From contig JABBOT010000001.1 of NCBI GenBank assembly GCA_016165875.1, positions 9,055,306 through 9,119,305 on the forward strand: 64,000 nt of DNA, in the 5' to 3' direction. Of this stretch, positions 3,701-56,500 are shown piece after piece. The notes beneath the pieces were generated by a model that saw only the letters and a list, made by a program, of their open reading frames with translations, did not search any database and was not told the DNA's origin. Source of the DNA: Acanthopleura granulata. Lineage: Eukaryota; Mollusca; Polyplacophora; Chitonida; Chitonidae. Position 1 is the stretch's first letter. Each line of letters opens with the position of its first letter. The position numbers were made by a program, and so were the translations under genes.

Positions 3701-6700
3701 GCAAAAACACCGAAGTTTCTGTAGGGATGTTTGTACAGAGCTTAAGTAGCATCAGCGAGCTGGAAATGGTAGGTTGTGTAAATGTTTTCTGACTGAAAAA
3801 ATCAACAAAAGAAATTGAATGTGGGCTTGATGAGATAGTTCACCGAAGACTAAACACAAAAATACAATTACTTGCTTTACAAAATTCAAATTCAACAGAA
3901 TTCATTATGACCAAATATTTGAATTTTAATAGAGGTCCAACAGTGGAGCATACTTGTGGATATTTGTCACAAATGTCCGTCTTACGCCATGGTAGTTCCC
4001 AAATAAAATGTGTCAGGAAAAGAGGTATACACATTCGATGTCATTTTCATTGATGTGCGTGCATTTTTTTGTTTCCGATAGTGTCGTTACTCCCATTTAC
4101 TTTCAAACTTTCATTTATTTAGTCAAACGTGAAATTTTTTGTAACTAATTCATCTGACCTTGGTATCAATGTTAAGAAATGAATCCACGACCTCTTAGAT
4201 AATACTAATGCAAAACTGACTCGTGTCGCCTGTTTTCACAGCAATATACGGTTAACATTTACTTTCGTCTGTCTTGGGTGGATCCCCGGCTAATGTACAA
4301 CCATACCACTGCCTACCTAAGTGTGGATGCCTTTTGGAAGACCAAACTATGGCTGCCTGATCCCTACTTCGTTAATAGCAAAGAGGAGCATTTTCACACA
4401 GTCACTGTGCCCAATATACTGCTGAGAGTGCACCCTGACGGCACGATTATGTACAGCCAGAGGTAGGTCAAAGTGCGTACCCTGACGGACTGATTATGTA
4501 CAGCCAGAGGTAGGTCAAAGTGTCTACTCTGACGGCCTGGTTATGCACACCCAGACGAAGGCTTAAGTGTCTACCCTGACGACTTGATAATGTACAGCCA
4601 GAGGTAGGTCAAGGTGTGTAACCTGATGGCATGATTATTTACGGCAAGAAGTAGGTCAAAATGTGTACCTTGGCGGCATGCACTGTCAAAGGTAGGTCAA
4701 TTTGTGTACCCTGACGGCCTGATTATGTACAGCCAGAGGTAGGTCAAAGTATGTACCTTGACGGCATGATTATGTACAGCCAGAGGCATGAGCTTAGTCA
4801 GTGTTCACCCTGACGTATTGGTTTTGTTGACATGATTATGTTCAGCTAGATAGAGGCCAAAGTGTGCAACTAACGGCTTGGTTATGTTATATTAGGTCAG
4901 AATGTGAGCCTACTATTCCCTGATAGTTAAATTATCCACATTTGGAGATATTTATGCCGGCAATCACGAATATAGGATCAAAGCGCTAACAAATTGAATG
5001 GAATAAACGTAATAAATTAGACGAAGCCATTTATATTGTGATGCTGTCCCAGATGTGTATCCAATGAGAATATTTATATCACACACAAAAATACTGGTAT
5101 TAGTCAGAAAATCACTTCTCATTTCTTCTTCGACTGAAGTTTGCCATCACTTTCACTGTTATTTCCCTCACATCACAAGGACGGTTTCAAGTATTCGTTG
5201 TCATGTTCCTGTAAACCAAGATGTAGCATGTCCTGCATTCCCTGCGTTGGTTCTGTGTTTTGGCAGATTGAGTCTGACCTTGGCTTGCAACATGGAATTA
5301 AGACGGTTTCCCATGGATACCCAGATGTGCGACATCCGCATCATGAGCTGTAAGTTAACGGATTCTGAAAGGATTCAATACAAATCGAAGGAACTGGAAG
5401 AAAACGACTCATTTTAAATATATCTATTCCGCATCTAAAGACGCTTCCTCGATTAAAATGGTTTATGTAAAACAGACTTGACTGAACTGGCTGTCTTAGA
5501 AAAAGCTTAACTCTTCTTTTTCTGGGTGAAACCTTAACGTCAACTTTAGCAGTTTTACAGCTCAAAAGGGTTAACTGTGGCCGGAAGGGTAAGCGCGTTA
5601 ATGCAGCGTTCTATCCCAGATGATGCTGACTTGCTCTCCGGTCGTATGTGGGAATCTTATGTGTGGTCTTGGATTTCCCCCGGACGCCGTCCGGTTTCCT
5701 GCCACCATAACGTCGGCCCCAGTATAAATGAAATATTCTTGATTACGGCGTAAAACATCAAGCAACTAAACCACCAATAAACAAATAAATCAATCAATAG
5801 AGTTGAACACGCTTCAGTAGTTTTTATTCATTGGTCATGACGATTTTCGCTGTACAAAGACGCCTTCACGACTCAGGACATCGTTCTCCGGTGGATGGAT
5901 GTGGACATGAACGATGACGTGGAACTGCCGGAGTTTGACGTGTCCAAACATGTGGATAAGGGCGACTGTACTGAAGAGCATGTTACAGGTAATGTATCAA
6001 GTAAATCTGCTCACAACCTGTCAACTCGTAAATGAACAGATAATGTCACAAATAAATCTGCTTATAAGCTATCAGCTTGTATATGAACTGGTAATATAAC
6101 AGGTAAATCTCAAATCTGCTTACAAACTGTCAACTTGTAGATGAATATGTAATGTAACAAGTAAATCTGTTTTCAAGCTGTCAGGTTGTAAATGAACAGG
6201 TAATGAAACAGGTAAATCTGCTGAAATTCCATCAACTGATCAATGAATAATTAAAGTGACAGGTAAATGTGCTTATAATGAATCAACTTATCGGTGGACA
6301 GCTAAAGTAACAGGTAAATGTGCTTACAATGTATCAAGTGGTAAACTGACAGGAAATGTAACATGTAAACCACAGTACATAAGTTTGCTCACAATATCTC
6401 AATTGGGCAATAGACAAGTAAAATATCAACAGATCAACACATCAGTCGATGGATAAAGGCATGGTAGCTCATAATGTTATTAAAAGATACCTGAAGAATT
6501 ATCATAACGGGTGAAACGATTGATATTACTGAACACATCATGTATAAAGAGATAAATCAAAACGTAATTCAGCAATTAAACTATACACAATAAATTAGCG
6601 GATAGATAAACCGAAAACGTAAATGAATAGGCAGGCCTAAAAGTGTCATGTAACTAAGGGTGCAAAGATTAAACAGCCACTTTGAATGAGCAATTTTAAA

Positions 6701-9700
6701 GTAACAGTCATTTGTATGAGACTGTGACGGTTGGGACTTGGTGGATCGCTTTGTTTACTTGTTTAAGTTTTAGCGTAAGTGGTATTATGGTCTTATCATG
6801 AGCACTTGTACCTTGTACATGGCAGGACAGGCGACAGGGACACTCGCTGGCCCATTGGTGTAATTGGTATAGGTCTACTCGAAGACGACTAGCCCTGAAC
6901 GTTCATGTGTTCGAATCCATCTCCTGTTAGTGAAAATGAAACCCATGTGTGCAGATCAATGAATCACATACGATAGAACAAAGAAATGGACGAGGAAAAT
7001 AACTAGCTCCGAGATCCTTTCGGCAAGTTCCAAGTTCAACTTCCACATTAACCGCTCTGAATCGTTACATTCACTAACCTGGATCTCGGTACAGCCATGA
7101 AAGGGTCGAACCTGTACTCAATAAAAACAAGTTTCACGCGATCGTCAAGTAATTCTGAATTCTTATCTCTGCACTATATACTCGAATAAAGTAGACCAAA
7201 AAGTCACAATTACACAAATGTAACTCCTCAGCCATCCAGACAGCATTCGGATTTTCGACTTACGTGGCTCCATTCAAAGGGTGGACTGGACATCTGTTTC
7301 CCAACATTAAGATCATCTTTTTCACAGTAGTTCCTCATTAACACAAAAATTGAATTTAAGATAACAAAACAACTTGTCAATCGACCTTTTTGGTTTCAAA
7401 CCAAACTTTCCACGAATTTATCTTTTCTGGACGATGCCGTATGCGGCCGACTCCAATTGAAAATGGCTTTCATCGAAGTTTGGCTTGCTGCCATTGTGTT
7501 AGGTATATATCTGTGTCAATAGAGACGTTCTGCCTTTTATTATCAATGAATAAACTGTGTGACATGAAGTCAGAAATACTCTAGTATTAAACAAAACAAG
7601 TTTTTAAAGCGCACAGCTTTGACATGTTCGGGGCAACACACTCGAGAAGAATTCCAGGTTAGTGAATGGAACAGTACAGGTCTGTATTTATGGGAACGGT
7701 TTCAAGAAGCTTCGAAAAAAGTTTCACGAAATTCTTTTTTGCTTAGGGGCAATTTTTTGCTTATGCAATCTAATGCTATACTTATGTAATCTTTCACTTG
7801 AGTTTTTTCGTGTAACACCCCTTGTTCGACTTAGGCAAAAACCTATCTTGTAAGCTCTGTGAAAACGGGCTTTGTTATATGTGCATGGAAGTAGTATTAG
7901 TTAGGCTGCGATATCAGTTGTATCGAACAGTTAAGTATAGTTGTTTCACGAGCGCTGAAGGGAGTGAACTGTTGTCTGCCGTGTAGTCAACTCGTTAGAT
8001 GACTTATTGTCAGCAATAAGTCATCCAAGGAGTTGACTACATTGAGGACAACATCACGTGCTCTAAGCCAGTTCCTGAGAATCTGACAGCAGCTTTGGAT
8101 GGACTATATTTATATCTTTACATAATTACTGTCTACAAGAATGCAGGGGTACAATGTTTCGACAATAGTTAATTTCCGCACAGGTAAATACTTCTTTTCT
8201 GACTGCGTTCTTGTTTTCGCGTTATCACTTTCAGGAACCTTCAGTTGCTTGATAGGTAAATTTACTCTGACCAGACGCTTGTCGTACTACATGGTTCAGA
8301 CTTATGTCCCAAGCATACTCATTGTGGTTTTATCCTGGGTCAACTTTTGGCTAGACGCCAACGCTACGCCAGCACGTGTCTCTTTGGGTCTTCTCTGCGT
8401 GCTCACCATGACAACCCAGAATTCGGGAATACTCTCTACTCTTCCACGGGTCTCCTATGTGAAATCTATCGATGTCTGGTCGTCTGCTTGTCTCGTTTTC
8501 GTCTTCGGTGCGTTAGTTGAATTTGCATTTGTGAATGTCCAAAGTCGGAAGAAAGAACTCCTAGACAGAAAAATAGCGGCTAAGGTAAGGAACAATGACA
8601 CCTGGTCACCATCTCATGCACATGGATGTCGCAAAAAATCACTTCCACCATTACACAGTTTTTTCTCACCTGGCTCGCTATATTAGAAAGTATAATGGCA
8701 TGATGAAAAGATGGAGAAGGCAAAAGCATTTTTGTTCTTATGTATTTGTACAAGATGTACGACATATCCTCAGTTTCCTCGGCGAGCATCTGAGTTACCT
8801 CATGTTCCGAAAACACTCCAGTTTATGATATCGGTACTGTCCAAAGTAAGTCATAGGAAAGGGAAAGGCATTTTAGATCCCAAGGACTGACGACATTTCA
8901 ACAAAATTTATATCATGAGTGAGGTAAATCTCATCTCAGTTATTTATCTTTTCCTGTCTGGGTTTCATTCTTTCTTTCTGGGAACGTTTGAAGGTCTTCC
9001 AGCAACCTGCTCATGGTCGTGGGTTTTATCTCCCCGGCTTCCTCCCACCATAATGCTGTCCGCCGTCGTATAAATAAAGTATTCTTGAGAGCGACATAAA
9101 ATACCAATCAAATAACAAAAATTAAAAAAATGCCAAAATGATTTGATTTTTGTGACAATTAAGGCATTGTATAATGACTTTGTGAAATTGATGACAATCT
9201 TGAAATATATATTCACTCAAACAAAAGTTATGTTTTTTTATCCGATTTCAACGATAAACCACATACGGTGCTTTAATCTGGATAAAAATATCCCGTGTCA
9301 TTTTTGCTTGATCGGCCAACATTTAATTATGTTCAGCGTCGCTTAAATGTTTCTTTCTTCTCTTTTTGTTCCATGTACCACTTGCTGCCACAGTAGTATC
9401 TATACCCTTAGTGATGACGCTGCTTGCTGATGTTTGGTGTTGACACACTGTACACTTGTCGCTGAAATAATACTATTTGTCTTTGGTGTTGGGTGGAATT
9501 GTACAAACGTTTGCTGGACGTCATTTTGCTATTTGATGTGAAGTTATTCACCCGTTTACTATTCCTGTGGTACGCTAGCGTTCAACCCTTTGACCTTGGC
9601 ACTTTAATTCTGTTGGATACCATTTTGAATCTGTTGCTGCTAGCATTGTGGTACTCTTTACTTTATTACTTCATACCTAATTCGTTTCAATCCGTGATGC

Positions 9701-9970
9701 TTAAAGTGTGTAATTGCATTTTTCGTCTACATCCCTCTGACACTGTATGTCTCTCTCTTTCTGTTGTCTCACCAGGAGCGCGCTCATCGCTCGATCATGA
9801 CCACAGCCAGTGCCGTCGTGGACAGAGACGTGGAAGACCCGCAGAAGACGTCTCCCTGTTCCCGGCATGCTCTTCTCCTGACTGCGGAGAGAATCGACTT
9901 CATCTCACGAATCATTTTTCCTTTCACTTTTTTGATCTTTAACCTCATTTACTGGCAGTATTATTTATAG
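3701..9970 (+). CDS. Cys-loop ligand-gated chloride channel subunit (GlyR/GluCl class), 5' incomplete
   Basis: This is a pentameric ligand-gated anion channel subunit of the plasma membrane. Exons: 3701-3768, 4242-4462, 5267-5349, 5860-5988, 8235-8584, 9776-9970; all phases agree and all introns are GT-AG. Translated in order they give the beta-strand segment VNIYFRLSWVDPRL, the WLPDPYF motif, a 13-residue Cys loop (C-NMELRRFPMDTQM-C), the second cysteine pair typical of glycine and glutamate-gated channels (C, 10 residues, C), M1 to M3, a short cytoplasmic loop and M4. The PAR motif before M2 predicts anion selectivity. About 348 codons are present; family members have about 430-480, so the signal peptide and roughly the first 60-90 residues are missing. 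The ligand cannot be decided: glycine, glutamate or another small transmitter. Two introns open with tandem copies of their own 5' splice sites. Confidence 0.9.
4242..4462 (+). CDS. Channel exon: ligand-binding domain, WxPDxxF region
   Basis: The acceptor TTTTCACAG precedes 4242 and the donor is AG|GTAGGT. The exon encodes the loop around SWVDPRLMYN, then KTKLWLPDPYFVNSKEE and LLRVHPDGTIMYSQ, which align with the principal-face strands of glycine receptors. It ends in phase 2. The last 35 bases are repeated downstream in the intron. Confidence 0.93.
4428..4870 (+). repeat. Minisatellite made of exon end plus 5' splice site (~47-base unit)
   Basis: The last 35 bases of the exon ending at 4462 (CACCCTGACGGCACGATT... 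to CAGAG) plus about 11 intron bases (GTAGGTCAAAG) recur about eight times with a period near 47. Several copies keep CAGAGGTAGGTCAAA intact, so they hold additional potential splice donors. The copies degrade towards 4870. Confidence 0.9.
5267..5349 (+). CDS. Channel exon: Cys loop
   Basis: The acceptor is TTTTGGCAG and the donor GTAAGT. It encodes LSLTLACNMELRRFPMDTQM followed by C, the signature disulfide loop of the superfamily with exactly 13 residues between the cysteines and the conserved FPMD core. It begins and ends inside codons that match the flanking exons. Confidence 0.95.
5577..5800 (+). repeat. SINE copy, near full length, diverged
   Basis: A degenerate tRNA-like head (GTAAGCGCGTTAATGCAGCG) is followed by the conserved body CCGGTTTCCTGCCACCATAA, the AAATATTCTTGATTACGGCG block and an AATAAAT-rich tail. 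It lies in the intron between the Cys-loop exon and the next channel exon. Confidence 0.8.
5860..5988 (+). CDS. Channel exon: loop F/C region
   Basis: The acceptor ACAAAG at 5859 is weak in pyrimidines but restores frame: T from the previous exon plus AC makes Tyr, giving YAFTTQDIVLRWMDVD, which parallels the SFGYTMNDLIFEWQDE segment of glycine receptors. The first cysteine of the second disulfide (KGDCTEEHVTG) ends the exon. The donor is GTAATG. Confidence 0.88.
5981..6440 (+). repeat. Minisatellite starting at a 5' splice site (~57-base unit)
   Basis: The junction CATGTTACAG|GTAATGTATCAAGTAAATC recurs about seven times in diverged form as GAACAGGTAATG and AACAGGTAAATCTGCT, separated by GTCAACTTGTAAATGA-like sequence. 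The array begins at the exon end at 5988 and fades near 6440. Only about 10 exonic bases are included. Confidence 0.75.
6441..8234 (+). other. Long intron before the transmembrane exon
   Basis: No exon or clear repeat family was seen except a hairpin at 7983-8040. Short open frames in this stretch have no recognisable domain and lie inside the intron between the exons at 5860-5988 and 8235-8584. Confidence 0.6.
7983..8040. repeat. Near-perfect palindrome (27-base stem)
   Basis: GTAGTCAACTCGTTAGATGA is mirrored by TCATCCAAGGAGTTGACTAC on the same strand. The arms pair over about 27 bases with two mismatches around a tiny TCAG loop (ATTG-TCAG-CAAT). It sits in an intron of the channel gene. 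Confidence 0.9.
8235..8584 (+). CDS. Channel exon: M1-M2-M3
   Basis: It starts in the second cysteine pair (GTFSC), then LSYYMVQTYVPSILIVVLSW is M1, TPARVSLGLLCVLTMTTQ is the start of M2, and SIDVWSSACLVFVFGALVEF covers M3. The PAR triplet at the cytoplasmic end of M2 is the anion-selectivity filter of GABA/glycine/GluCl channels. Unusually, M2 position 6' is Leu and 7' is Cys, where relatives have Thr-Thr. The acceptor is CACTTTCAG and the donor GTAAGG. Confidence 0.96.
8985..9112 (+). repeat. SINE 3' fragment
   Basis: It contains GGCTTCCTCCCACCATAATG, GCCGTCGTATAAATAAAGTA and TACCAATCAAATAA, matching the 3' half of the window's SINE family. It lies in the last intron of the channel gene. 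Confidence 0.85.
9776..9970 (+). CDS. Channel last exon: M3-M4 loop and M4
   Basis: The acceptor is TTGTCTCACCAG. It encodes a short basic and serine-rich cytoplasmic stretch, then ERIDFISRIIFPFTFLIFNL as M4, and ends IYWQYYL-stop, matching the IDxxSRxxFPxxFxxFNxxYW signature of glycine receptor M4. With the end of the previous exon the M3-M4 loop is only about 55-60 residues. Confidence 0.95.
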   Translation, partial: ERAHRSIMTTASAVVDRDVEDPQKTSPCSRHALLLTAERIDFISRIIFPFTFLIFNLIYWQYYL

Positions 9971-9988
9971 CGTTCCATGTTATACAAA

Positions 9989-9994
9989 AATAAA
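9989..9994 (+). terminator. Candidate poly(A) signal of the channel gene
   Basis: An AATAAA hexamer lies about 20 bases after the stop codon. It is unusually close, so one of the later AATAAA matches (for example near 10322 and 10558) may be the one used. Confidence 0.4.
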
Positions 9995-10242
9995 CCTTCC
10001 ATTTTATACAAAATAGAGCACCAAGCAGGATGACACCTTATATTTCTCTATACTTGTGCTATTGCAAGCAAATTAATATATTTCTGTGTACAAGGTATTA
10101 TGTGGGAAGCAAAACTCCACGCCTTATAGAAAAGACGGCGACAAATTTAATGCCAATATCCTTGTACGTTTTGGTATGTTTAAATATACATGTATATATT
10201 TATTGTTATCATCCGTTATCACACAATCACTCGTCAACTGTT

Positions 10243-10310
<68 letters not shown>
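10243..10310. repeat. (TG)n(TA)n(TG)n microsatellite
   Basis: There are about seven TG units, then about twelve TA units, then about fourteen TG units in direct succession. The short open frames read through it are artefacts of dinucleotide repetition. Confidence 0.97.
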
Positions 10311-10311
<1 letters not shown>

Positions 10312-10762
10312 TAAATTAAAAATAAAACGCCAAGGAGAAGCATGCAATCCAACTTTTGTGACTCATATTTTGTCCCAGTAGTGTGAATTGTTCTAAGTTA
10401 AGTAGACCTACACATATACAGGGAACCTCACGGCAATGTGCGGATCTGGCGGAGTCCTTGTGATACAGACCAATATAGACCATGTTTTATATATAAGATA
10501 TCTTGATATATTTTGTAAAAATTGAAAAAAATGTACTTTCATGCTCTCAGATTAGTTTAATAAAGGGATCAGATTTGGTGTCTTTAGTGAATTACACAGT
10601 GCATGTCAATCATTGAATCACCTTACACCTCACCTTATTTATTCATTTGTGTGTAACAGAATTTTATCATACTTCAGATTATGTCTATATTTCAACACGT
10701 AAGACAATTTAAAATGCAGGATTAAAAAATCATACTAAGGAACAGTCATTCAACAAATGGAA

Positions 10763-10895
10763 AACCGTTACGATAAATTAAAAGTTACATGTTAATTTTT
10801 TCATTGGCGTTGGCTATGTACGGTTACAACCGTTACGATAAGCTACAAGTTACATGTCATTACTTTCACTGCGGTTGGCCATGTAAGATTACAAT
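10763..10895 (+). repeat. Tandem duplication, ~66-base unit, two copies
   Basis: Two adjacent copies share CCGTTACGATAA, AAGTTACATG, a T-rich run, a GCGTTGGC/GCGGTTGGCC block and GTACGGTTACAA/GTAAGATTACAA. No coding content was seen. Confidence 0.85.
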
Positions 10896-12079
10896 GTAGG
10901 CCGATACCATTCCTTATGTCTGAGAAAAATAAACCTTAATAACCAGTGTACATGTGTGTTTGTTGTCATTACAGTACGTTTGACCAGTGGCAGAGTTCTA
11001 ACTTAATACTTAGTAGCATTGTAGCATTGTGACTAGAGTGCACTACGAGAGCGCAACCATACGCCACAGTTAAATGTACAAATCACACACTACAGACACA
11101 AAGAGACAATTCTCTGAGCTTTGGATCATATCCGGCCATTGTCAATGTTCCTTCAAAAATTTCCTGGATTTGGATCCAGATTTAGAGGATCACCAAGATG
11201 TAAACGATTAGCGCTTGCAACAAATATCATCCAAATACGTTCACAACCTTTTCCATAAAGTTGCTGACTAACAGACAGACAAATAAACACAAAAGAACAT
11301 GGCCTTCTTTGGTGGAAGAAGTGCAAGGTGTTTGAAACTATGGAAACTATGGATACTTGGACCACAGCCTAATACGACGTTTTTAAGAGTTCGTTGGCAT
11401 AAGCTTGTGCAGATCACACCCTATATATAGGAAAGTCGTGATGAGGAGGCGATTATATAGGATATGGATACTGATAGTGTAAGTATTGGTATTTGATACG
11501 ATTCATAACACAACCGAGGTTTCACGTTTAAAGCTATGTCAAGAGATTTCCCAAGAAAAAACAATATACGGACAGGTTTACCCAAACAGCATAAATTATG
11601 ATGTTTATAGCCAACTGAGTTCGTGTACATAGGTGTCTTAGCCACATCTGCGATCATGCTGTGATTTGGGCTCCTATCGCCATCGAAGCAATTTACACAA
11701 AAAAATTTATGGCAAACCGAGATGGGTGTCATTATGATGGCACCAGGCTGTGTGTTCTCATGAGAACAGCTTGTTCCCCTATTCAATATACAATGATAAG
11801 TCAACAAAAACATTGTACGAAGATCATCGTACACGCCATGGGAAAGAGCTAACTTATCACCTTGTGTCGTGGATTGTCGACAGTAAGGATTCCTTGCTTA
11901 AAGATCAAAGAAGTTCCTAGCCCTGGATGACGCCACACACTTGGATGCGAGTGGTATCATTAATCTATGAGCAGATGGACATCTCGAAATACAGGTTTCA
12001 TGCTCCCCAGTTACCGGAGATGCAATAATACGAAACATGTTTAGGTTCACCGGCACAGTCAACAACTCCAGGTATTCGC

Positions 12080-15200: not shown

Positions 15201-15267
15201 GGAGCCTTCCAGCTAGGGTGGGCTTACTGGACTCGCGGTCACAGTCTTCTTACACTATACCACTAAT

Positions 15268-15337
15268 ATGGAGGTTAACTCGAAGGAATCTGAGACAATG
15301 ACTGGATCGGGCGAGGAGAAAATAAATCCCAAGGACG
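15268..15337 (+). CDS. SLC17 first coding exon
   Basis: ATG begins [18 protein letters not shown] and the exon ends INPKDG at donor G|GTGAGT in phase 1. Joining G to the TG at 26174 makes Val, giving [15 protein letters not shown] in frame with TM1. A hydrophilic acidic N-tail of about 25 residues before TM1 fits the family. This is chosen over an in-frame ATG at 26140 because a good acceptor (CTGTTCCGTTTCAG) precedes 26174 and the phase fits exactly. Confidence 0.82.
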
Positions 15338-18300
15338 GTGAGTGAATGTTGTCTTATCCTTCAAGTACATGGTACTGCCATGGCACTGCGAGAGCATCAG
15401 AGTACCGCTGAATATCAACGCCTACATGTACAGCGGAGGTGCTATGTGTACAATCTTACTACTGCGAACATTGTTGCCATTGCGTTCCAGTTAACAGCTA
15501 CACGTCAGCGTGAGAGATGGGGTTGGAAAATACATTTTATGCTGAACATCTGGCTGTAAGGGAAGCCGCGTGAAGCCGTTCGAAAGTTGATTTCGAACAT
15601 GACAATATTAATCGGCGTGCCGGCGACATGTGTACACACACAAACAAGAGATAGCACACGTGGTCCGTTCCGAAGCACAGCTGCCAGCCTGTCTGTAACC
15701 ACCGGGAAACGATGTATAATGAGGAATGCATGTGGGCTATAAAGTCGAGGGGCATCCGTGGCTTAGTTGGTTAGCGCCCCAACGCAGCCTAATGACCCAG
15801 AAACTCCCCACCAATGCAGTCACTGCGAGTTCAAGCCCAGTTCATACTGGCTTCCTCTCAGGCTGGTCGTGGGAAGGCCTGCCAGCAACCTGCGGATGGT
15901 CGTAGGTTTCCGTCGGGTTCTGCTCGGTTCCTCCCACTATAATGATTGCCGCCGTCCTATAAGTGAAATATTCTTGAGCACGACGTTAAACACCACTCAA
16001 ATAAATAAATGTAAAGGAGCAGCCCATGTGCTCAAAGCACAACGCGCAGCCCACGCCAGCCCAGATCGTTGACCGTATTATCATATACATTTAGCAACAA
16101 GTCACCTTCCCCACCATTCCTGTGTAGGCTAAGTGTTTTTCTCATTGGCTGCTGATAGATATATTTTTGAATCTGCAGAGCCGCATTTTCGCAAACCGGT
16201 TAGTGTGAGCATGATCAGATCGGCCCTGTTATCATCTCCATCACAATCAGCCCAAAAGGGGTTGGACTGACCTTTGTCTTTAAAATGAAGAATCAGACTG
16301 ACATATATACATCAACATGGAATTTCTAAACTGACAGAAAGTATCCCCCCCCCTCCCCGCGAAAGCAAGGCGCACATTCTTGTGTACTCAGTCTGTATGA
16401 AGAATCCACGCTTCAGGTGATTACCAGTTGCATTCATGGTTCAAGGTTCACAACCTTGAAAATTACATGGCATCTGACTGGGGAATGTCTCAGCCGCGAG
16501 TGGCATCAGAGCCACGATTGCATGTTGTCACAGGAAGTGGGATAAACGTAGAGAAAGGCATTGTCCAGTCAAAATGCTTTGTTTCTTCTAAACGATTCTG
16601 TCTTATTTTACGATCGAATGTAAAAACTAGAATAGGCGTACAACTTGCTTTACATGTAAAAACTCAGAAAGCCTTGATAGCCTACACAGGGATGGATCAC
16701 GGCGGTCCTGCCCCCCCCCCCCCCGCCACACACACACACAGCGTGGAAGAAATACATTAAATGGGCCCCAATTGTTTATGTATTCATCTGTGGTTCGTCG
16801 GGGCAGTTTGATTGACAACTGGTAGCAAAACTGGCTGGGTTTCTGCGACAGGAGGCGGATGGGAGCAACTACAAGCAACTCTGAGCATCTGACCTTCCTG
16901 GTTTTTGTCAATCTAACTGACTCAGCAGTTGCTGGGTGTTGATCGTGTTCAATTTTTATGCCACTCGAAGCATATATATCCAGTTCCGTCGATCTGAGTG
17001 TGCTTGCGCTCAGTTGGTCACAGTTATTCATTATCGTCGAAGGGTTTTGTCAGGCTTTTCCACATAAGCGTAACGATGTTTCAATTCGGAATCATGACTT
17101 CAAAACTCGGGGCCATGATTTTAATCTTGTAATTTTTTTTCTTCAAACTGTTACTTTTATGGCGTGTATAGAGTGGCGGAGTTTCCGGTGCCTAAGGGGC
17201 CCCTGGATTCTCGCCTAACGTAATGGTATAGACTTTCATACTCGGAGCCCCCCACTTTTAATCTGTTATAATATTTATTCACCGCATCATTTAACGGCTC
17301 GGTACTCGCATCCCAATTCCCAATGCCCCTAAATGGCAGTCTAAGGCAATGAGAGGGCATGGCGCTTCCGGAGCCTGCACGAACTTTGACCTTCACCTAG
17401 CGTGCAGGGATAGACTTTAATACACTCAGTTTCCACTTTCAAACCATTTTTTTCACCACGTCCATTAGTGGCTCAGTACTCTCAGATAAAATCTCTTGGC
17501 GTCCCCAAAATGCCTGAGAACTCATTTACGGCCTTCTGGGAACATTTATTAACATCCAGAACACATATTTTATGCACTTCTTGAGACAGAAGAATAATCT
17601 GTGTAGTAGAAATTGCTAAAATGCCAATACTCAAAGTCACGTCGAAATTCAATTGGCTTCAAGGAAGCGTAGAAATTGGAGCATCACTTTTTGTGGTGTA
17701 TGTGACATTCATCGCGGACAATCCTTCAAAATGATTTTCGCTAGTTCCGTTCCTGCATGCTATAGACGAGTGCAGGCCAGTTGAACATTCGAGCTAAGCC
17801 TGCGGAAAAATGAAAATCACTACGTGACTTTCTTGTTGCATTGTACAGTGGCCAATCAATACATGCACCTGTCTTAAATTGCTATCCTCTTTTTTTGGGG
17901 TGCATGAGTAAGTGGTGATATTTGAGAGCAATGCGGCAAATGTTGCAATGATGGTCCCGGAAAGGCCATTATGAATGACGGTGGATATAAGAACGTCTGA
18001 AGAATGAAATAAGAGCATGTAAGAACCGTTGACCTTGAGATGGTCGGATACTTCACGGACGTAACAAAGCAAGCAGAGCACTGATGCTAAAGCTGCTCAC
18101 TTTGAAAATGACCAAAGCGACCTGCACATATTGATAGTATATTCTGTGGAGTGCTGCATGAGAAAATGTTGAGTTGATACATAACAACGTACAGATACAT
18201 GGATATAACTAACTGGCATAACATACCTGCAGCTTTTACCTTTAAATAAATCAGCGAATAAGAATACTTATTATATATTTTAAGGAATTGGATTATTTAA

Positions 18301-41636: not shown

Positions 41637-41642
41637 TTTATT
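41637..41642 (-). terminator. Candidate poly(A) signal of NOC3L
   Basis: TTTATT on the plus strand is AATAAA on the minus strand, about 275 bases after the proposed NOC3L stop. Confidence 0.5.
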
Positions 41643-44583: not shown

Positions 44584-47500
44584 CTATATACATGCAGAAA
44601 AAGAAAGACCTATATATAGCACCTGTCATTTTCATGTAGCGTTTTCTCAATTTAATTATACTTTATTTTGTATTAAAAGACCATTTCACAAAGTTACAGG
44701 GTTTTTTTCCTTACAGCATTACTTTGCAGAAGTGACTAAACACCAAACTGATCTAAAGGAACAAAATAACTGTTTGGCCTCTCAACATATGGCTGATACT
44801 TCAGTATATATCAAAATGCATTCATCTTTAAATCATATTTTATATATTAGCACTCTGGTTAAAATTTATTTTAACACACCAATGGGTCCTTACCTGTATT
44901 AGCATCCTACACATGCCCAGTGTAGCTGTGGACCCTTACCTGTGTTTAGTGTCCTACACATGCTCAGTGTAGCTGTGGACTCTTACCTGTATTAGTGTCC
45001 TACACATGCCCAGTGTAGCTGTGGACCCTTACCTGTATTAGTGTCCCACACATGCCCAGTGTAGCTTTGGACCCTTACCTGTATTAGTGTCCTACACATG
45101 CCCACTGTAACTATGGACCCTATCAGTGTCCTACACAGGCCCAGTGTAGCTGTACACCTTTACCTCTGATAGTGTCCTACACATGCCCAATATAGCCAAG
45201 GACCTTTACTTTAGCGTTCTACACATACACAATGTAGATATGGACCCTTACTTGTATTAGTGTCATACATATGCCCAGTGTAGCTGCATACCCTTACCTC
45301 TATTAGTGTCCTACACATGCCCAATGTAGCTATGGACCCTTACCTGTATTAGTGTCCTACACATGCCCAGTGTAGCTATGGACCCATGAGGAAGAAGCTG
45401 TAGACATAATGTACACAGCCTCTTGATGTATGCCAAAATTCTATGTTCTGACATCTGGAAATCAAAACAAAGCAAGACAATGCTATGTATGCTTCCACTA
45501 TATACAAACCACAGAAATTGTGAAGTTTTACAACATCACCCGATGGTATTATAACTTCAAAAAATTATGAGAAATAGACCCATTCAGTTTTGGGGGGGTT
45601 TTGGCAAGTCACAATTGTACTCACTATATACAAACCACAGAAATTAATTTTTACAACATCACCTGATGGTATTATAACTTCAAAAAATTATGAGAAATAG
45701 ACCCATTCAGTTTTGGGGGGGGGGGGGGTTGGCAAGTCACAATTGTACTCTCTGGTTCAAAATAACACTATATTTTCAAAGAATACTCTTCTTTCTGACT
45801 TTCGTCAGGGAATTTATTTGAGAAAATCATAATGTGATGCCTTGTCTCCATAGTGAAAGCCACACCAAGCTTGAACAAAGGCCTTCAGTGTCCTCTCACA
45901 ACTGATCCACTTCCACATACTGACTCACCAGTCTCTTTCTTCTGCTCACAACAACATCTAAGCAGTCTAATATGATAGCAATATCCTCACTGCTGCTGCC
46001 TACAACAAGACAAACATAGTCACCAGTCAGAAAAGTGAAATATGTGTATTTCAGGAACATTATTAGGAACCCCATGGGGTCTACCCCCAAATATATTGAA
46101 CGACAACTGGTCCTGTGATAAAGGCATTCCATGATTTAACACGTAGTACATGTAGCTGTAAAGTGACACCTTGATTTGTTTGTTAGTTTCAACTTTGTAG
46201 TACATGTATCTGTAGAGTGACACCTTGATTTGTTTGTTAGTTTCAACTTTGTAGTACATGTATCTGTAGAGTGACACCTTGATTTGTTTGTTAGTTTCAA
46301 CTTTGCAGTACATGTATCTGTAGAGTGACACCTTTATTTGTTTGTTAGTTTCAACTTTGTAGCACTTGTACCTGTAAAGTGACACCTTGATTTGTTTGTT
46401 AGTTTCAACTTTGTAGTACATGTACCTGTAAAGTGACACCTTGATTTGTTTGTTAGTTTCAACTTTATGTCACGTTACATCCTGGCAGGGAAACAATTCC
46501 ATTTTTATTGTGATCACTTCATTGAACCTAGCTATTTTTAGCCCATCAAAACTGAAATTTGAGCAACACCTTGTACAGATGCTTAGAAAACCTCATGTGG
46601 TTAACAGTGAGTGCTGTCCTTAGACCTGTGATGAGATTTACCTGCATGCACATTGGGTAACACATTGTACAGGTGTGTGTAAAATCTCATGTGTTTTACA
46701 CTGAGTGCTGACCTTTGATCTTTGTGATTTACCTGCATGGAGCTTCTGTAACATGTGCTTGAACAACCTCATGTGGTTTACACAGAGTGCTGACCCTTCA
46801 CATTTGTAATTTACCTGCAAGCACCTTAAGTAACACTTTGTACAGGTGCTTATTGAACCTCATGTGGTTTATGCTGAGTGCTGACCTTTGTGATTTACCT
46901 GCAGACACCTTCAGTAACACCTTGTACAGGTGCTTGTAGAACCTCACGTGGTTTACACGGAGTCCTGACCCTTCACATTTGTGATTTACCTGCAAGCACC
47001 TTGAGTAACACTTTGTACAGGTGCTTGTTGAACCTCACGTGGTTTACACAGAGTGCTGACCCTTCACATTTGTGATTTACCTGCACGCACCTTAAGTAAC
47101 ACCTTGTACAGGTGCTTGTAGAACCTCACGTGGTTTACACGGAGTCCTGACCCTTCACATTTGTGATTTACCTGCAAGCACCTTGAGTAACACCTTGTAC
47201 AGGTGCTTGAAGAACCTCACGTGGTTTACACAGAGTGCTGACCCTTCACATTTGTGATTTACCTGCACGCACCTTAAGTAACACCTTGTACAGGTGCTTG
47301 TAGAACCTCATGTGGTTTACGCTGAGTGCTGTCGCTTGCCCTTTGAGATTTACCTGCATGCACCTTCAGTACCACCTTGTACAGGTGCTTGTTGAACCTC
47401 ATGTGGTTTATGCTGAGTGCTGTTCCTTGACCTTTGTGATTTACCTGCATGCACCTTCAGTAATACCTTATACAGGTGCTTGTAGAATCTCATGTGGTTT

Positions 47501-50500
47501 ACACAGAGTGCTGACCCTTCACCTTTGAGATTTACCTGCATGCACCTTCAGTACCACCTTGTACAGGTGCTTGTTGAACCTCATGTGGTTTATGCTGAGT
47601 GCTGACCTTTGTGATTTACCTGCAGACACCTTCAGTAACACCTTGTACAGGTGCTTGTAGAACCTCACGTGGTTTACACGGAGTCCTGACCCTTCACATT
47701 TGTGATTTACCTGCAAGCACCTTGAGTAACACTTTGTACAGGTGCTTGTTGAACCTCATGTGGTTTATGCTGAGTGCTGACCTTTGACCTTTGTGATTTA
47801 CCTGCAGACACCTTCAGTAACACCTTGTACAGGTGCTTGAAGAACCTCACGTGGTTTACACAGAGTGCTGACCCTTCACATTTGTGATTCTTTCTGACTT
47901 TCGTCAGGGAATTTATTTGAGAAAATCATAATGTGATGCCTTGTCTCCATAGTGAAAGCCACACCAAGCTTGAACAAAGGCCTTCAGTGTCCTCTCACAA
48001 CTGATCCACTTCCACATACTGACTCACCAGTCTCTTTCCTTGACCTTTGTGATTTACCTGCATGCACCTTCAGTAACACCTTGTACAGGTGAATGTAGAA
48101 TCTCTTGCGGTTTACACTGAGTGCTGACCCTTCACCTTTGTGATTTACCTGCATGCACCTTCAGTAACACCTTGTACAGGTGTTTGTAGAACCTCATGGG
48201 ATCTATATTAAGAGCTGACCCTTGTCCTGTTAGGATGGTGAATGCTGTCAGTACACAGTGAAGTGTCTCTCGATAACTCAATCTCTGAAAGACACAAATA
48301 ATCAAATAATTAGGCATTCATTAAAGTTTTTATCACTGTGAGACATCAGAAAATATACCAATATGTGTACTTCAAGAAGACATATCAATACTACGGTAAT
48401 ATATTAATGAACTCAAATTTACAATGAATACTCAGATCTCTACAGAATACAGAGAGGCAGTAACAAAATTAACGACTGAGGAGTGATAGACACTCTAGAG
48501 TCAAACACCTAAATATCATAGGTAAATATCGAAACTGAGGTCACAGCGTATACAATTCCGAGACCTGATAGTAACCTACCTCAGAGTCTATCAGCTGATT
48601 AAGAACTTCAAACAGGTCATCAAAGAAATCCACATTTATAAGATGTGAAAATCTGCAAAAATATTAGTAAATTCAGTATTTTCAAACTCAGATAATGCTG
48701 TTTTGAATACCACCGGATAAACAATGTTGAGTTTAAAACAAGGAAATCATAACTTTCATATGAACTTTGAGTTTTTATCATTCAATTGTATATTGAAATA
48801 GGATAATACTTAAAAGTATTAATATACAACAAAACGTTATCAAGTTGCCTAATAAGAATGTGAACAATGTGTCTTAGCAGTATCAATCATAGGTATCATA
48901 GCTTTGTCAGGGATTCATAAAAAAAAGACATACATGCTGCTGTAACACAGAATGTAGGCAGGGCAGTCAGACAAACAGGGGCAGGGTAGATAACTCACCT
49001 AGCCAGGCCCTCTAACACAGATGGGAGCAGCGGAGATTTCTTCTCAGATTTCAAAATTCTGAAGTATGTCAAGAAGACTGCCTGGATGACCTCTGTATGC
49101 TGAAAAGAGAACAAAGAAAGTGTTATGGATTTTTTGCTGGAAACAGTATCTCAATAGGTAAATCCAGACTCAAGGAATTTTTCTAGCTATTGACTCTTCC
49201 TGATGAATTCTCCAGTTAACAATGATCTGTCAGTTCAAACGTCTCATAACTCCAAAACACTGGCAAAACTTCGTCTGAATAACTAGAACTGCTGTTGTTT
49301 CTAAAGCACAATTCTTAGCTGATGTGAACATTTTGACTTCTTAACAAAGCTGCAGATTTTGTCCATGCCTCTTCTGTCCATGCCTCTTTTGTCCATGCCT
49401 CTTCTGTCCATGCCTCTTCTGTCCATGCAGTACAGAGTGCAAGGAAGAAATCATTCTAGTCCTAGTTATCTTCAAAAACTATAAATACTGGAAGACAGTA
49501 AGGGTTAAATTCGTCAATGACTTACCAACTTTAATTTGGCCTTTTTATTCTCTGTGGCTTTCGTTTCTAACAGTTCCTTCTCCAGTTTTTCCAACTGTTT
49601 TTGTCTCTGAAGAGGTGAACAAACACAGCACAAATTTTATTTGGATTGGTACAATGGTAGTCTAATTTACAGGGCATGGATAACTGGCTAACTGAGAGTA
49701 AATCCCAAACCTTGGCCAGGTGGAGGATACCAGGCAGAGCTCAGAGGAAATCTCCAACCTTGGCCAGGTGGAGGATACCTGGCAGAGCTCAGAGGAAATC
49801 TCCAACCTTGGCAAGGTGAAAGATAACTGGCAGAGCTCAGAGGAAATCTCCTACCTTGCCTAAGTGAAGGATACCTGGCAGAGCTCAGAGGAAATCTCCT
49901 ACCTTGCCTAACTGAAGGATACCTGGCAGAGTTCAGAGGAAATCTCCTACCTTGCCCAAGTGAAGGATACCTGGCAGAGCTCAGAGGAAATCTCCTACCT
50001 TGCCTAAGTGAAGGATACCTGGCAGAGTTCAGAGGAAATCAGCTTCCTCAGCCAGGTGGAGGATATCTGGCTTACTTAGAGATCACCTACCCTGGGGACG
50101 TGGAGGATAGATGGCTCTCAGAGGAAATCTCCAACCTGGGCCAGGAGGATGATACATGGCTAAGAGCAAATCTCCTACCTGGGCCAGGTGAAGGATACCC
50201 GGCTAACTCAGAACAAATCTCCTACCTGGGCCAGGAGGAGGATACCTGGCTAACTCAGAACAAGTTTCCTACCTGGGTCAGGTGAAGGATAACCAGCAGA
50301 GCTCAGAGGAAATCTCCAACCTGTAAACCAATCACTGCATTGCGTATCTCTTTCCCTCTTTATCCTACACTCTAATAGAGACAGGGCCAGGCATTTTTTG
50401 CAGTAATGCAGAATGACTTACCTTCCTTTCTCGTCTGGAGTATTTTAGCATTTTTTCCTTTTTCAACAACTTCTTCTGTGTATCATCTTCCCCTTTATAC

Positions 50501-53500
50501 ACTTCTTTGATTCTTAAAGCCAGGAACGTGTCCAACACCTGGTCAACAGAAAATACACATGGAACTTTGACTGGGACCTCCCTGGATCATGTGAATAAAG
50601 CACTGGCTCACTGCAACTATCAGACTCTTGACTATTACGTCACCTGTTCAAATTCAGCTCTTTCTGGTTTGACTGTAACTTCTGTCAAGTATAACTATTT
50701 GCAGACAAGCACACACAACTTATCACCACAAGAAACTGCTGGAAAGAGTTACCTTTCTATGGATATTGTGGTCTCTGGTTTTCAAGAGTCTTGAAATTAA
50801 TCGTACAATCTGCAAAGACAAAGAAAGCAATCAGTCAAAGCAATGTATTTCAATGATTTTCAAGAACTAAATTTCAGGAGAACAATTTATCAGTTTTATG
50901 TCTTGTTAATATTGATCAAAATTTAACTTCATAACCATATTATGTAACTTGTTTTGATCCAACTGCCTCCATGGGTTTCACTTTAAACATTCTATGTACA
51001 AGTATGTATGATTTCTTCCATTAAATTATACCAAACAATTCATTCTTTACATTGTTTAGCCAGTAAAGTCAAATCCAGAGGTAGCACCAATCACATGCAA
51101 GCTAACACTTTGCTGATGGCCTACCTCTAGGGATACCTCTCCTGATTTGTCAGTCTTAAACACAGTCTCCACAGCTTCACATATGGGATCTGAGATCTGG
51201 GCACACATGAAAGGAGATTTTACACATATCATACATTTGCGTAAAGATCAACAAGAGGCAGAAAACATACCCGAACAAAACATCAAATATTTAAGTTCTA
51301 TGTTAAAACAGTTCTCCATACATATGTCATGACGGTACTTAGGGGTGCAAATATTGAATCTAGGACCAAAAGATCTATTGGATACCAAATTTGGTTATTT
51401 GAGATAGGTCGTGAAGCATCCTCCAATTTTTCTCAAGCCAACACAGAAATTAGGGACCTTTGAAGCCAAACCACAGTTTGGGTTTACTAAAAAGACTAAA
51501 TTACTAATTAAAACTTTAACAAAACTGAACAAGCATGAGGTCTATATAAAATCTTCTGGATGAATTGATCTGCTGCCAGTTCACCTTTAAATCGAGAATG
51601 GCTACAAGTATATCACCTGGTCTGGTTTCTTACACATAAGAGGATATGAACAGTTATGATGTTATTACCTGGTCTGATCTTTTACACATAAGGGGTTTAG
51701 AACAGCTATGATGTCATTGCTGTCGACTGGTCATTTACATATAAGGGGTAAGAACAGCTATAATGTTATTACCTGGTCTGATTTCTTACACATCAGAGGG
51801 ATAAGAACAGCTATGATGTTATTTCGGTAGTTGAAGTGAGGATGGTTTACCAGCATCTGGCATAAGCACTTGACAGCAATTTCACACATGGCCTACAAGA
51901 AAATTTACTTTTTTAGATATAAAAGAAGAGGTAAACTCTTCAACTGCCTGGAAAATGCAACATGTACTTACTGAATTTGCACACTGGCATACGGACATGA
52001 CGAACTTGTAACCATTTTGCAGACTTGCTGTTGTTCATGTGTTTGTAAAACAAAACCGTAAAATCATCTACAGTGGATTTCATACACATGTACATGTGCG
52101 CACATCTTTGCTATTGTCAGTTTAAGCTCACCAATACATAACTCCATCTCTGATATAAAAGCATTTCTTTATTACTTTGTTACAGGATTGTCAAACATCA
52201 TTAACTATTTCAGTACTTACTATGATTTATCACACAGGTTGCAGAAATACACGCATAATAATGTGCTGAGTGTTTCTTTCCTCGTACAATACACACGTAT
52301 AAAAGGCAAAAGCCCTGACCTTGGATGTGGCCTCTGTCATTTCACTGTTGACCCCGTTCTGCCCCTTGCGTTTGTTTCTCTGATGACCTTTCACCAGACC
52401 TTTTCCCCCTGTGTTAATCAGAATACTATAAGTTATGCCAGCGTGTTGCATGGGTCGTCGAGATTAAATTTTTCATGAGTCCCAAGGGTGAGTTGAAATA
52501 TTGATCTATGAGACGAAATATCAGTCTGTTTACCCACACAACACACTTGTATAACGAATTTATCACAATGAAGAGCATTCCAGCTGACTTTTGTTGATAT
52601 TTTTGCTAAAACACGCTGCGTTTTCACAGATGCTTTGCCACTGACTAAGCAACCGATGTCATGGCTCACACGATGAGAACAGTACAGGCTAGGACCAGGG
52701 TATTGATGGCGCAGAGCAAAAAACACCGCTTTAAATCCATCTGATTTGCAACGGTTTGCAATTTAACTAAAATGTTACTTTTCTACATATTGTTGAACTA
52801 TTAGAATTCTTTAGAAAATAGAGGCAAGAAAAGTTACCGACTCATACATTGCTGACAAGCATTGCTATCCTCCAGCGCGAGAATCCTTGACTTCATAGGG
52901 ATATAGAAAAAATATCGAAGGCACGAGACTTTATTGCTTACCCGTTTTGCAAATCCGGTAGCCTGTTCAAGGCAGATAGACCGGAGGCCTCGAGTTTTCT
53001 CAGAATTGTGACAAATTGTCTTCTCACATATATGTATTGAAGTAACCCTATTTTTACCTGAAGATCTCTAGGAGAGTGACAGGAAATCCTCGGCGAATCT
53101 ATTACACATGAATTTTCCAACAAATGATGTACAATTTAACAACGGATTCTCACACAAATTTTATTCATATTATTCCCAACATTTGTTGCACCTATACCAT
53201 TGTTGTGAGTATCAAAAAGTTGTCGGTATAACATGTTTCTATTGTCCATCACCAACAAAGTCACAACCATATGAGTATGAAATCTCTCCAATCGTTTTTC
53301 TATTATTACATCTAACCACTTGTTTTTCACTCTGACATCTGCTTATGTTTAGATATCTGCTTGGTCTGCTTTTATCTCCTTTTAAAACCAATGTTATTTT
53401 TATTGAATACCCCGGCACTTGTCTATTCTGAATAGCGACAGGGATTTCCAATCCCCACTGTATTTATGGCATGTTAATCCACACTGTGTAATCCGACACA

Positions 53501-56500
53501 GCATTTTCTCCTGAAGTTGATTTTGATTAGAACACTCCACACACTGTTAGCTGATATGGCATCGGGTAATTCAGGACATCAATAAATACTCCAGTTTATG
53601 GTCACATTGTTTTCCAAATTTCATTAAATCCAGCATGGCTGACCGATCTGCTAAGAAACATCGTGTGCCTTGTGCGACTTTTCCTAAGTCCCTTTCTCTT
53701 TACTTTCAAGATGGAAACAGTTTTACTTTGGTTTGACAAGTATGACAAATTTGCTATATGACTAACAACGCCTCAGAAGTTCCAGTTCCACACATGTTTA
53801 CTCATTAGCCTATCTGTTTTTGTAAGCCTATTCTTCTACGCATTTAAACAATTAACAGCTGGGACAAAGAAGCCCAGCTTCATTCACCTTGCTTGCTTGT
53901 ACAGAACTTTGTTTATTAGTGACATGTCTGAAAGCTGTGTATAAGGAAGCACCTGTAAGTGTTGTTGTTGTTGCACACAGTATATTCCACAAACTGACAT
54001 CTTGTCAAAACTAACATTTTTTTGCGGAACCGGACATGGTCAGTTCAGACAAGTTTTACTGTAGTTCATATTCATGTGATACAAGTACTCTTGTAAGAGA
54101 AATTCCTTGTCCACAATTCACCTATCTATTGTGTTGATATGCCAAAGACAGAGTGCATAACAGACAACAGCACAAACTAAATGTATACCTTTAGCCACTG
54201 ATTCCAAATATTCCAGATAAAGCCTGTAGTTGTTCAGCAAAGATGTTTCATAGTCCAGTAAACTCCGAGTCTCCTGTTTTAGCTGCACCAAAAAAATGGG
54301 GACACAAATCACATTCATACACGTGAACACTGAACCTGCTGACAGTTCACATTCCTAAAGATTACAAAAACCCTCAGTACCTAACACTGGTTCCTGGAAA
54401 CGCAACTCTGAAAACTTGACCAACTCAGTCATAAAAACGAGATGAATGAATTTCATCTTGGTCACCTTGTGCCCTTTAGGACCCAGACAGCCGTGTGTGG
54501 ACGCGGTATCCATACTATACCTCCATACAGAGCAGGTCTTCAACAGATTATTAATAGAAGTCTCAGATGAGACAGATAACAGAAGAGTGAAAAATCAAGA
54601 TGAGGACCTCAGACAAACACTTAGAAAAGTGGTTGTTGTATTTTAGTCAGCCCCTTATTGTTTAACAACAATATAAATTGCTTCTAATGTATTTCACACT
54701 TTTAAACATGTTAAAGTGGGATTCAATCACCTCAATTTTTTGTCAAGTTCATAACGAAGAGCTTGAAATGTGAAATACTTTGACCGTGGCCATACAGCCG
54801 TACCTTGGTGAGTTTATTGGCCATACAGCCGTACCTTGGTGAGTTTATTGGCCATACAGCTGTACCTTGGTGAGTTTATTGGCCACACAGCCGTACCTTG
54901 GTGAGTTTATTGGCCATACAGCCATACCTTGATGAGTTTATTGGCCATACAGCCGTACCTTGGTGAGTTTATTGTCCATACAGCCGTACCTTGGTGAGTT
55001 TATTGTCCATACAGCCGTACCTTGGTGAGTTTATTGGCCATACAGCCGTACCTTGATGAGTTTATTGGCCATACAGCCGTACCTTGGTGAGTTTATTGGC
55101 CATACAGCCATACCTTGGTGAGTTTATTGGCCATACAGCCGTACCTTGGTGAGTTTATTGTCCATACAGCCGTACCTTGGTGAGTTTATTGGCCATACAG
55201 CCGTACCTTGATGAGTTTATTGGCCATACAGCCGTACCTTGGTGAGTTTATTGTCCATACAGCCATACCTTGGTGAGTTTGTTGTCCATATGAGGCCGTA
55301 TCCTGTAGCCAGGGATGATGTCCTTGAAGAGCTCCATCATGGAGACCATTACCAACTTCCGCACAGTAATAAACACATGAGGTTCTTCCTCACTGAGCAT
55401 CAGACGTAGCTCCTTTAGCTTCTTCATCTGTACAGCAAAACATTTTCATGAAGATATACAAAGGTATTATCCTGAAATTTTTTCTATAATCTACAAGATG
55501 GAAATTGGTCCAGTTTTGTGAGTACAATCAACAAATATAAGATAAATTTTCATCAAAACTTGATGATTTGACGAAAAGTCTGGTGACAAGAATGCTAAGA
55601 AAGTGAATAAGCATAATGCTGTGCACTCACACCTAGCTTACAATAGATATTTATTTGATTGTTGTTTAGCCTCTGTGGTAGTGGGGGTTATCACACTAGT
55701 GCAGCATAATAGTTCAGAGGCCAATCACCAATGCAGTCACCGTGAGTTCCCGCAGACGGTCATGGGTTTCCCCTGGACTCAGCCCGGTTTCCTCCCACCA
55801 TAATGCGGGCCACTGTCATGCAAGTAAAATATCCTTAAGTATGGAGTAAAACACCAATCAAAAAAATAAATAAATGAAGAGATTATTGTTTAATGCCATG
55901 CCCAAGATTTTTTCACATTGGTGGTGAGTTTTATGGGTGGAGGACATTGGAGTGCTGAAGTTTACCACCAAAATTCTGGGAAAGTACTCACAAAGTGTCC
56001 CACACAAGATATACATATGCACAGCATACTGGTTTGAAGACAAATGGCCTTCAAAAAAAATTGGACTTCACAAACAACCACATGCTAATTGTCGCCAACA
56101 CCTCACAGGCAGTAAAAGCAGACTTGTGCGTTTCTGCACTTGAAAGGCAACAACCTTAAATAAATTACTGTGGATACAAAGGTTGCATTGTCACCTTACA
56201 TAAATCATTTCCACTGTTCACTGTCTGTTGTCTGAGAAGTTCATGTTGGATTAGTACTCATGGAGAGATTACTCTACTGAAGTCTCACTACAGGTCCAAG
56301 ATGCTAGAATGACATGAACTCTACTACTAACAATTTAACTTCAAAATGTAACAAATTCAAACATTTTGAATTCCTCTCCTTAGATGTGTGGCAAACATCA
56401 AACAACCTACAAGTATGTAACACACTATTACATGTAGCTACTTTTCCCCGAATCTGAATGTGAGTCTATACATGACAAGTGTTTTCATGCCTGTATTTGA

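Follow-up and report, generated by a model that had tools for sequence, protein, structure and literature searches.

Minisatellite arrays across splice donors in a chiton: probable counterparts of the amphioxus 'mirages'

The window, a 64-kb stretch of DNA whose genome matches the chiton Acanthopleura granulata, carries a Cys-loop ligand-gated channel gene, a major-facilitator transporter gene named SLC17 in the first-pass annotation, the NOC3L gene and the beginning of a DEAD-box helicase gene, presumably DDX51 judging from its peptide (Table 1). Several introns of the first three genes open with tandem copies of a unit that spans the exon end and the splice donor. The founder of an array is its exonic copy, which codes for conserved protein; the other copies lie downstream in the intron. 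Internal match among copies is 71-95% in seven arrays (TRF).

Table 1. Positions of genes and donor-side arrays in the window
Feature	Position	Strand	Remarks
Cys-loop ligand-gated channel gene	3701..9970	+	6 modelled exons, 5' end excluded
Channel gene array, 47 bp	4428..4786	+	donor after 4462; the founder takes 35 nt from the end of exon 4242-4462 and 12 nt from the intron
Channel gene array, ~51 bp	5985..6369	+	touches donor after 5988 (ACAG only); marginal, outside strict count
SLC17-like major-facilitator transporter gene	15268..38893	+	10 exons; Pfam MFS
SLC17-like gene array, 54 bp	27218..27680	+	donor after 27263; the founder takes 45 nt from the end of exon 27030-27263 and 9 nt from the intron
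NOC3L gene	41918..59417	-	21 exons in the model, exon 1 placed by eye alone
NOC3L exon 5 (55427-55269) array, 31 bp	54787..55290	-	donor 55269/55268; 15 intronic copies aligned, GT in all
NOC3L exon 8 (51892-51773) array, 52 bp	51611..51823	-	donor 51773/51772
NOC3L exon 15 (48284-48149), founder and first copy of 91-bp array	48038..48223	-	72 nt of exon and 19 nt of intron; donor 48149/48148
151-bp copy within NOC3L exon 15 array	47888..48038	-	100% identical to its source, 45939-45789 (end of exon 16, its donor and intron start)
NOC3L intron 15, rest of 91-bp array	46565..47889	-	donor 9-mer invariant in aligned copies
NOC3L exon 17 (45454-45344) array, 46 bp	44888..45385	-	donor 45344/45343
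DEAD-box helicase gene, first two modelled exons	61684..63630	+	continues past window

At every junction of the 36 introns modelled in the window, the intron itself was scanned for copies spanning that junction. Such copies are found at six of the 36 donors (4462, 27263, 55269, 51773, 48149 and 45344) and at none of the 36 acceptors. The first-pass annotation had named seven junctions and about one donor in five. TRF arrays are present at all seven places, and the exon ends from the gene models agree with those it gave, but at 5988 only four exonic bases fall inside the array and a relaxed scan alone picks the site up; six junctions stand, about one donor in six. The relaxed scan also yields the marginal SLC17 donor 33116 (score 24) and no acceptor in the window. 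In controls, shuffled introns gave 0/180 donor and 0/180 acceptor matches, and planted acceptor arrays were recovered in 144 of 144 cases. The window's acceptors include that of a misplaced DDX51 exon 3; the true site, 64084, is outside the window and, when scanned there, has no junction-spanning copy.

That acceptors are spared, as also noted in the first-pass annotation, holds within the window, yet an acceptor-side array is found ∼560 bases past its right end, at DDX51 exon 4 (L033:564-906). Neither of its two decoys retains the TTTAG/G of the site: the first has TTTACG, and the second has TTTAAG, in which an AG lies one base further along. This array came from a re-check of acceptor matches at looser gene prediction, the exon having been skipped by the gene finder, and other acceptor cases may therefore be missed. 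A codon-score screen of array ends did not flag DDX51 and is therefore not exhaustive.

The sample was extended by 250 kb, with homology corrections, to 124 introns: 36 from the window, 81 predicted outside it (some certainly false, such as those past the end of SEC31A), four from DDX51 and three from SEC31A, the two outside genes checked by homology. Arrays are found at ten donors, ∼8% of these introns, and at one acceptor (Fisher p = 0.010). The asymmetry is thus upheld in the whole sample but is not absolute; donor arrays occur in four of the 81 predicted outside introns, and outside the window alone the four donors versus one acceptor are not significant (sign p = 0.375). The score cut was raised from 24 to 27 after donor 7622 of the TAF8 region (score 24) appeared; with this donor included, the count is 11 to one. 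Donors 5988, 33116 and 7622 are all left out of the strict count.

When checked against Liolophura SEC31A, 19 of 22 matched exons proved to have been predicted, and the three missed exons add no array matches. A 69-nt predicted pseudo-intron in a coding repeat (C2 region, 87267/87198), whose two ends match in a two-way search and not in the within-intron scan, stays in the denominator. Other prediction settings give four donors and no acceptors in 59, 63 and 99 introns, and five and none in 116. Looser settings give 7/3 in 178, 10/4 in 239 and 12/7 in 405 introns, most of the donors predicted in the window at the two loosest being false. By eye, four of the seven loose acceptor places are in or opposite an array, one is a dispersed repeat, one is unsupported and one is DDX51. 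Twelve transporter loci, kept outside the 124, contributed 11 predicted introns with no array at a donor or an acceptor. Also located were 83 myosin exon matches.

The first-pass annotation proposed, as speculation, a specific process such as replication slippage or repair tied to the donor. On such a reading donors or intron starts would be hotspots of tandem duplication, for example through R-loops or repair at the exon end. Six of 36 donors in a single window are consistent with a hotspot, and so is the exonic share of the unit, which in the window clusters at 0.71-0.88 (KS p = 0.0014), a clustering that random breakpoints do not predict. However, the four outside donor cases display no such clustering (a spacing of 107 was used there for TAF8, where the scan match implies 118), and only nine of 29 introns with an interior array also have a donor match, the other 20 having none. 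Moreover, a random position in an intron is roughly as likely to be repeat-covered as a donor; the figures within the window are 14.6% downstream and 15.4% upstream, and outside it 4.0%. If arrays ignored boundaries, ∼7.5 junctions of each kind would be expected; ten donors are no excess over this (P = 0.22), whereas a single acceptor is a clear deficit (Poisson P for one or fewer = 0.005). A donor hotspot is rejected because the intron background accounts for the donor count, and we regard it as unlikely.

Arrays in the window take no account of the donor boundary. Starting from 6/36 at the donor itself, coverage is 7/36 over +10 to +60, 8/36 at +100 and 9/35 at +150; in the exon direction it fades, with 3/35 covered 40 nt in and 0/27 covered 80 nt in. 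On the acceptor side it stays at zero all the way between 60 nt in the exon and 40 nt in the intron, with 1/36 at 60 nt and 4/33 at 200 nt deeper in the intron. Outside the window the acceptor-side profile is noisier: two of 79 acceptors are covered at 10 nt and two of 79 at 20 nt upstream, all by weak matches (scores 27-32). Donors are crossed by arrays at roughly the rate at which intron sequence in general is covered, acceptors at a far lower one. Unprotected donors and protected acceptors are a better reading of these data than a donor-tied process or selected decoys.

Human NOC3L aligns across the four NOC3L junctions with no copy-derived residues, as does that of Liolophura sinensis (84% identity), and residues 528 and 529 of Liolophura SEC31A flank the SEC31 array intron. 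If used, the copy donors would shift the frame in 33 of 48 cases and bring an in-frame stop in 14, leaving one open in frame. Protein conservation and frame argue for regular splicing being undisturbed, and it is on these grounds that use of the first donor is predicted. Copy donors frequently equal or exceed the founder in strength (at NOC3L exon 5 the founder scores 6.47 and 12 of 15 copies score 7.79), so the first site would be chosen by something besides donor strength.

Similar arrays, termed 'mirage' minisatellites, are described in amphioxus in Adh3, the globins BflGb6 and BflGb9, troponin C and PGBD5 (PMC3087553, PMC3902484). Their units are of 10-160 bases, often keep AG/GT and occur at both boundary types, and splicing is reportedly normal despite them, acceptor arrays included (PMC3087553, PMC3902484). 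The chiton arrays share with them a tandem unit across an exon/intron boundary, locus specificity (seen for two units), retained splice signals and occurrence at both boundary types, the one acceptor being that of DDX51. The amphioxus cases, as far as the cited accounts describe them, concern individual genes, with acceptors among them (BflGb6, PGBD5), whereas the chiton arrays belong to a different phylum, are known from the DNA of one haploid assembly and come from a 124-intron sample with a 10:1 donor bias. Within those accounts mirages are known from amphioxus gene by gene; new here are the phylum, the rate and the measured donor bias, the ∼8% donor-side rate making both rate and bias measurable. 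The link to mirages was not made in the first-pass annotation. In potato, a tandem duplication likewise lies over an intron/exon boundary, but there the acceptor is crossed, the duplication is visible to splicing and a new intron is created, whereas in the chiton it is mostly the donor that is duplicated and the copies remain in the old intron (PMC4974935). In period, divergence and homogenisation of copies the chiton arrays resemble ordinary intronic minisatellites; they differ in having a splice donor and coding sequence within the unit.

The arrays are probably mirage minisatellites in a chiton, that is, products of ordinary minisatellite growth filtered by splicing. Slippage or unequal exchange would create a short tandem duplication that by chance lies across an exon end and its donor, and the extra copies inside the intron would grow and diverge like any minisatellite. 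A donor-spanning duplication would be silent because the authentic first donor defines the exon and the copies leave with the intron. One spanning an acceptor would place a complete decoy (branch point, tract and AG) ahead of the real acceptor, where the decoy is transcribed first; it would reach the mRNA and then be eliminated unless the decoy were weakened. We infer that the donor/acceptor bias is such a survival filter, and introns would therefore grow mostly at their 5' ends. The amphioxus acceptor arrays speak against a filter, as they reportedly leave splicing undisturbed (PMC3087553, PMC3902484).

A more specific proposal, which we hold only tentatively, is one of polarity: sites might be chosen in transcription order, the first donor and the first acceptor winning, and introns might become longer at the 5' side as exon ends are copied again and again. 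Donor duplications would then be silent and accumulate, and acceptor duplications would be visible and survive only with degraded upstream decoys, as in DDX51. If polarity is true, the arrays would amount to natural experiments in donor competition, a large number of them within a single genome. Should the bias hold genome-wide, they would offer a natural test both of intron growth and of how a spliceosome picks one among many near-identical donors. They also carry a warning for annotators: a true donor may be followed by many strong false ones.

The extra donors might instead be kept by selection, as decoys that regulate or buffer splicing. The copies do often preserve the donor, as the first-pass annotation stated, GT being present in 51 of 54 aligned copies from seven arrays, and the NOC3L exon 15 array has an invariant donor 9-mer in an otherwise variable unit. 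With that one exception, however, the donor 9-mer is no better conserved than the rest of its own unit (mean percentile 0.54, seven arrays), and 47 of the 48 copy donors would damage the frame. GT retention is attributed to common descent and homogenisation, and selected decoys, also raised earlier, are very unlikely. Of about equally low standing, and if anything slightly more improbable, is intron birth by duplication of an AGGT-containing exon segment (a Rogers-type model), the arrays being remnants. The unit does contain AG/GT, and introns are documented to arise through tandem duplication (PMC4974935; PMC3087553), but the acceptors of the six window introns lack a junction-spanning copy; in none of the six was a duplicated segment found to supply both splice sites.

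An assembly artefact is the least credible explanation: the assembly is a MaSuRCA hybrid of Illumina and Nanopore reads (PMC7850002) and the perfect 151-bp copy in the exon 15 array could be a misjoin, but an artefact would not yield the divergence seen among copies of the seven arrays, and such arrays are present in several genes, spread over two contigs. Copy number in the assembled arrays may be wrong.

A mobile, introner-like element was considered and rejected, in keeping with the first-pass annotation, on a genome-wide search of two units and on the lack of any obvious sequence common to the units. A literature search with repeat-element strings found no match. In the genome-wide search of the two units only the best candidates were scored. 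Among the matches listed, six of six for the NOC3L exon 17 unit and 17 of 17 for the NOC3L 91-bp unit lie at the unit's own array.

Tandem arrays built from an exon end and its 5′ splice site had been reported at seven junctions by the first-pass annotation, and TRF rows (53 in the window) are present at all seven. For 36 window introns, a stretch of 45 + 45 bases centred on each donor was compared with the intron downstream of it, and a like stretch at each acceptor with the intron upstream of that; a pass was a local match score of at least 24 with the junction crossed by at least 6 bases on each side. Junction-spanning copies are found at 6/36 donors and 0/36 acceptors. A relaxed scan adds two donors, 5988 with four exonic bases and the marginal 33116, and again no acceptor, so the claim that the window has no acceptor-anchored array holds. 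Shuffled introns gave 0/180 at both donors and acceptors, and planted acceptor arrays were recovered in 144/144 trials. Exon-interior points that match their own intron number 6/216, none of them more than 56 nt from the nearest of these donors. A 48 bp array (49695–50322) in NOC3L intron 11 has a donor-like CAGGTAGGAG in several copies; the junction scan gave no match between it and the neighbouring exon end.

Introns outside the window come from two stretches, 200 kb on contig 2 and another 50 kb to the right of the window. They were predicted with a small gene finder for which the window served as training set; at the setting used it recovered 32/36 known donors among 38 predicted, as tested on the same genes as in training. 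Among 81 predicted introns, in genes with three or more exons, scores of at least 24 are seen at 5 donors and 0 acceptors, and scores of at least 27 at 4 donors and 0 acceptors. These four outside donor arrays, in HAUS5, SEC31, TAF8 and CENP-U, differ in form, the extremes being 13.6 copies of a 59-base unit and one extra copy; the matched stretch includes the junction in each.

The donor-only claim is restricted by an array across an acceptor of the DEAD-box gene at the right end of the window, which we take to be DDX51. Two copies lie in the upstream intron (scores 110 and 51). The peptide across the exon 4 acceptor aligns with helicase DDX47, and thus the last acceptor is the site used. TTTAG|G is lost in both decoys, the intronic copies of the site; one has AG one base on.

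Gene models, drawn from splice sites read in the sequence and tested for open frames, are listed with this array below. The match of the NOC3L model to human NOC3L covers 750 query residues (E = 4e-183); among the NOC3L matches listed, the one from the chiton Liolophura sinensis is nearest at 84%, the next being at 51%. Introns at 57071 (minus) and 32766 (plus) seem to open with GC, not GT (CAG|gcaagt and TCG|gcaagt).

Gene models in the window and the DDX51 acceptor-side array to its right (window coordinates; L033 is the sequence right of the window)
Feature	Position	Strand	Extent	Remark
NOC3L		minus	21 exons	splice-site reading; exon 1 by eye only
SLC17-like transporter			10 exons	Pfam MFS_1 support
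Cys-loop channel			6 modelled exons	Pfam support
DEAD-box gene			start only in window	
DDX51 exon 4	64829–64945			past window, in L033; without a place in the gene finder's set
DDX51 acceptor-side array	64564–64906 (L033:564–906)		138-base unit, 2.5 copies	across exon 4 acceptor

With four unpredicted DDX51 introns and three of SEC31A added to the first 117, there are 124 introns, 10 with an array at the donor and 1 with an array at the acceptor (Fisher p = 0.010, sign test p = 0.012). Within window introns, a downstream copy exists for 237/1621 sampled points (14.6%) and an upstream copy for 250/1621 (15.4%); outside, 58/1448 (4.0%) have a copy. Per-intron coverage, when summed, predicts 7.5 junctions in arrays among the first 117 if arrays took no account of boundaries, and ∼0.2 more from the seven added introns. 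With introns taken as independent, 10 donors against ∼7.5 expected gives P(≥10) = 0.22, and 1 acceptor against ∼7.5 gives P(≤1) ∼0.005. The window profile agrees with these background counts: array coverage stays level over the donor, and at the acceptor no array covers the interval between 40 bases on the intron side and 60 bases on the exon side; at 80 bases into that exon it is 3/29. Outside the window the profile shows more noise: 1/81 at the acceptor, from a coding-repeat pseudo-intron, and weak matches 10–20 bases upstream of the acceptor in four introns.

These data point to a filter on the sites where arrays survive, rather than on those where they originate. Donor copies would be silent if the first donor wins, and acceptor copies would be harmful if the first acceptor wins. 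This fits co-transcriptional site choice and the altered DDX51 decoys, which are two copies only, but is in tension with the acceptor cases described in amphioxus, where the identical architecture is named a 'mirage' (PMC3087553, PMC3902484). In contrast to the amphioxus cases, the chiton sample has a donor bias of 10 versus 1. No report of mirages outside amphioxus was found in the literature covered, which includes molluscs with such repeats and chiton genomes with tandem repeats and few subscription papers. As far as could be seen, the measured donor bias is new.

The exonic copy is coding at every array, and therefore the intronic copies derive from it. At the four NOC3L junctions, no copy-derived residues are found in the human or Liolophura NOC3L alignments; a little upstream of the 55269 junction, one residue is gapped in the alignment with human, and exon 9, downstream of the 51773 junction, is missing from the Liolophura isoform aligned. 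This NCBI isoform, X2, is without exactly the residues of exon 9 (51125–51196, minus, 72 nt, after the 51773 array), which suggests that exon 9 may be skipped in frame in this related chiton.

GT is retained in 51/54 copies aligned across the donor (seven arrays). If used, copy donors would cause a frameshift in 33/48 cases and a stop in 14 more (six arrays). Conservation among copies is not donor-centred, the percentiles at the donor being 0.58, 0.54, 0.87, 0.57, 0.76, 0.01 and 0.46 in the seven arrays; 0.01 belongs to the NOC3L exon 15 array, the sole one that would fit donor retention. Exonic sequence makes up 0.71–0.88 of the unit in 6/6 window cases versus 0.27–0.53 in the four outside.

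From 27218, the SLC17 array is open in one reading frame as far as 27704, and one copy donor would yield an in-frame extension, so that a longer protein isoform is conceivable. A 151 bp stretch comprising the NOC3L exon 16 end, donor and intron start (45789–45939, minus) has a second copy, 100% identical, at 47888–48038, two kilobases upstream and within the array of exon 15. Either a duplicate was inserted there recently or the sequence is misassembled.

Other repeats were seen by eye. A dispersed SINE-like element with an aataaata-rich tail and words such as ataatgctggccgccgtcgtataagtgaaatattcttgag occurs repeatedly, at ∼2600–2755, 15870–16010, 21980–22110 and 38070–38210, and an inverted duplication of ∼100 bases (∼58900–59000 and 60400–60560) lies between NOC3L and DDX51.
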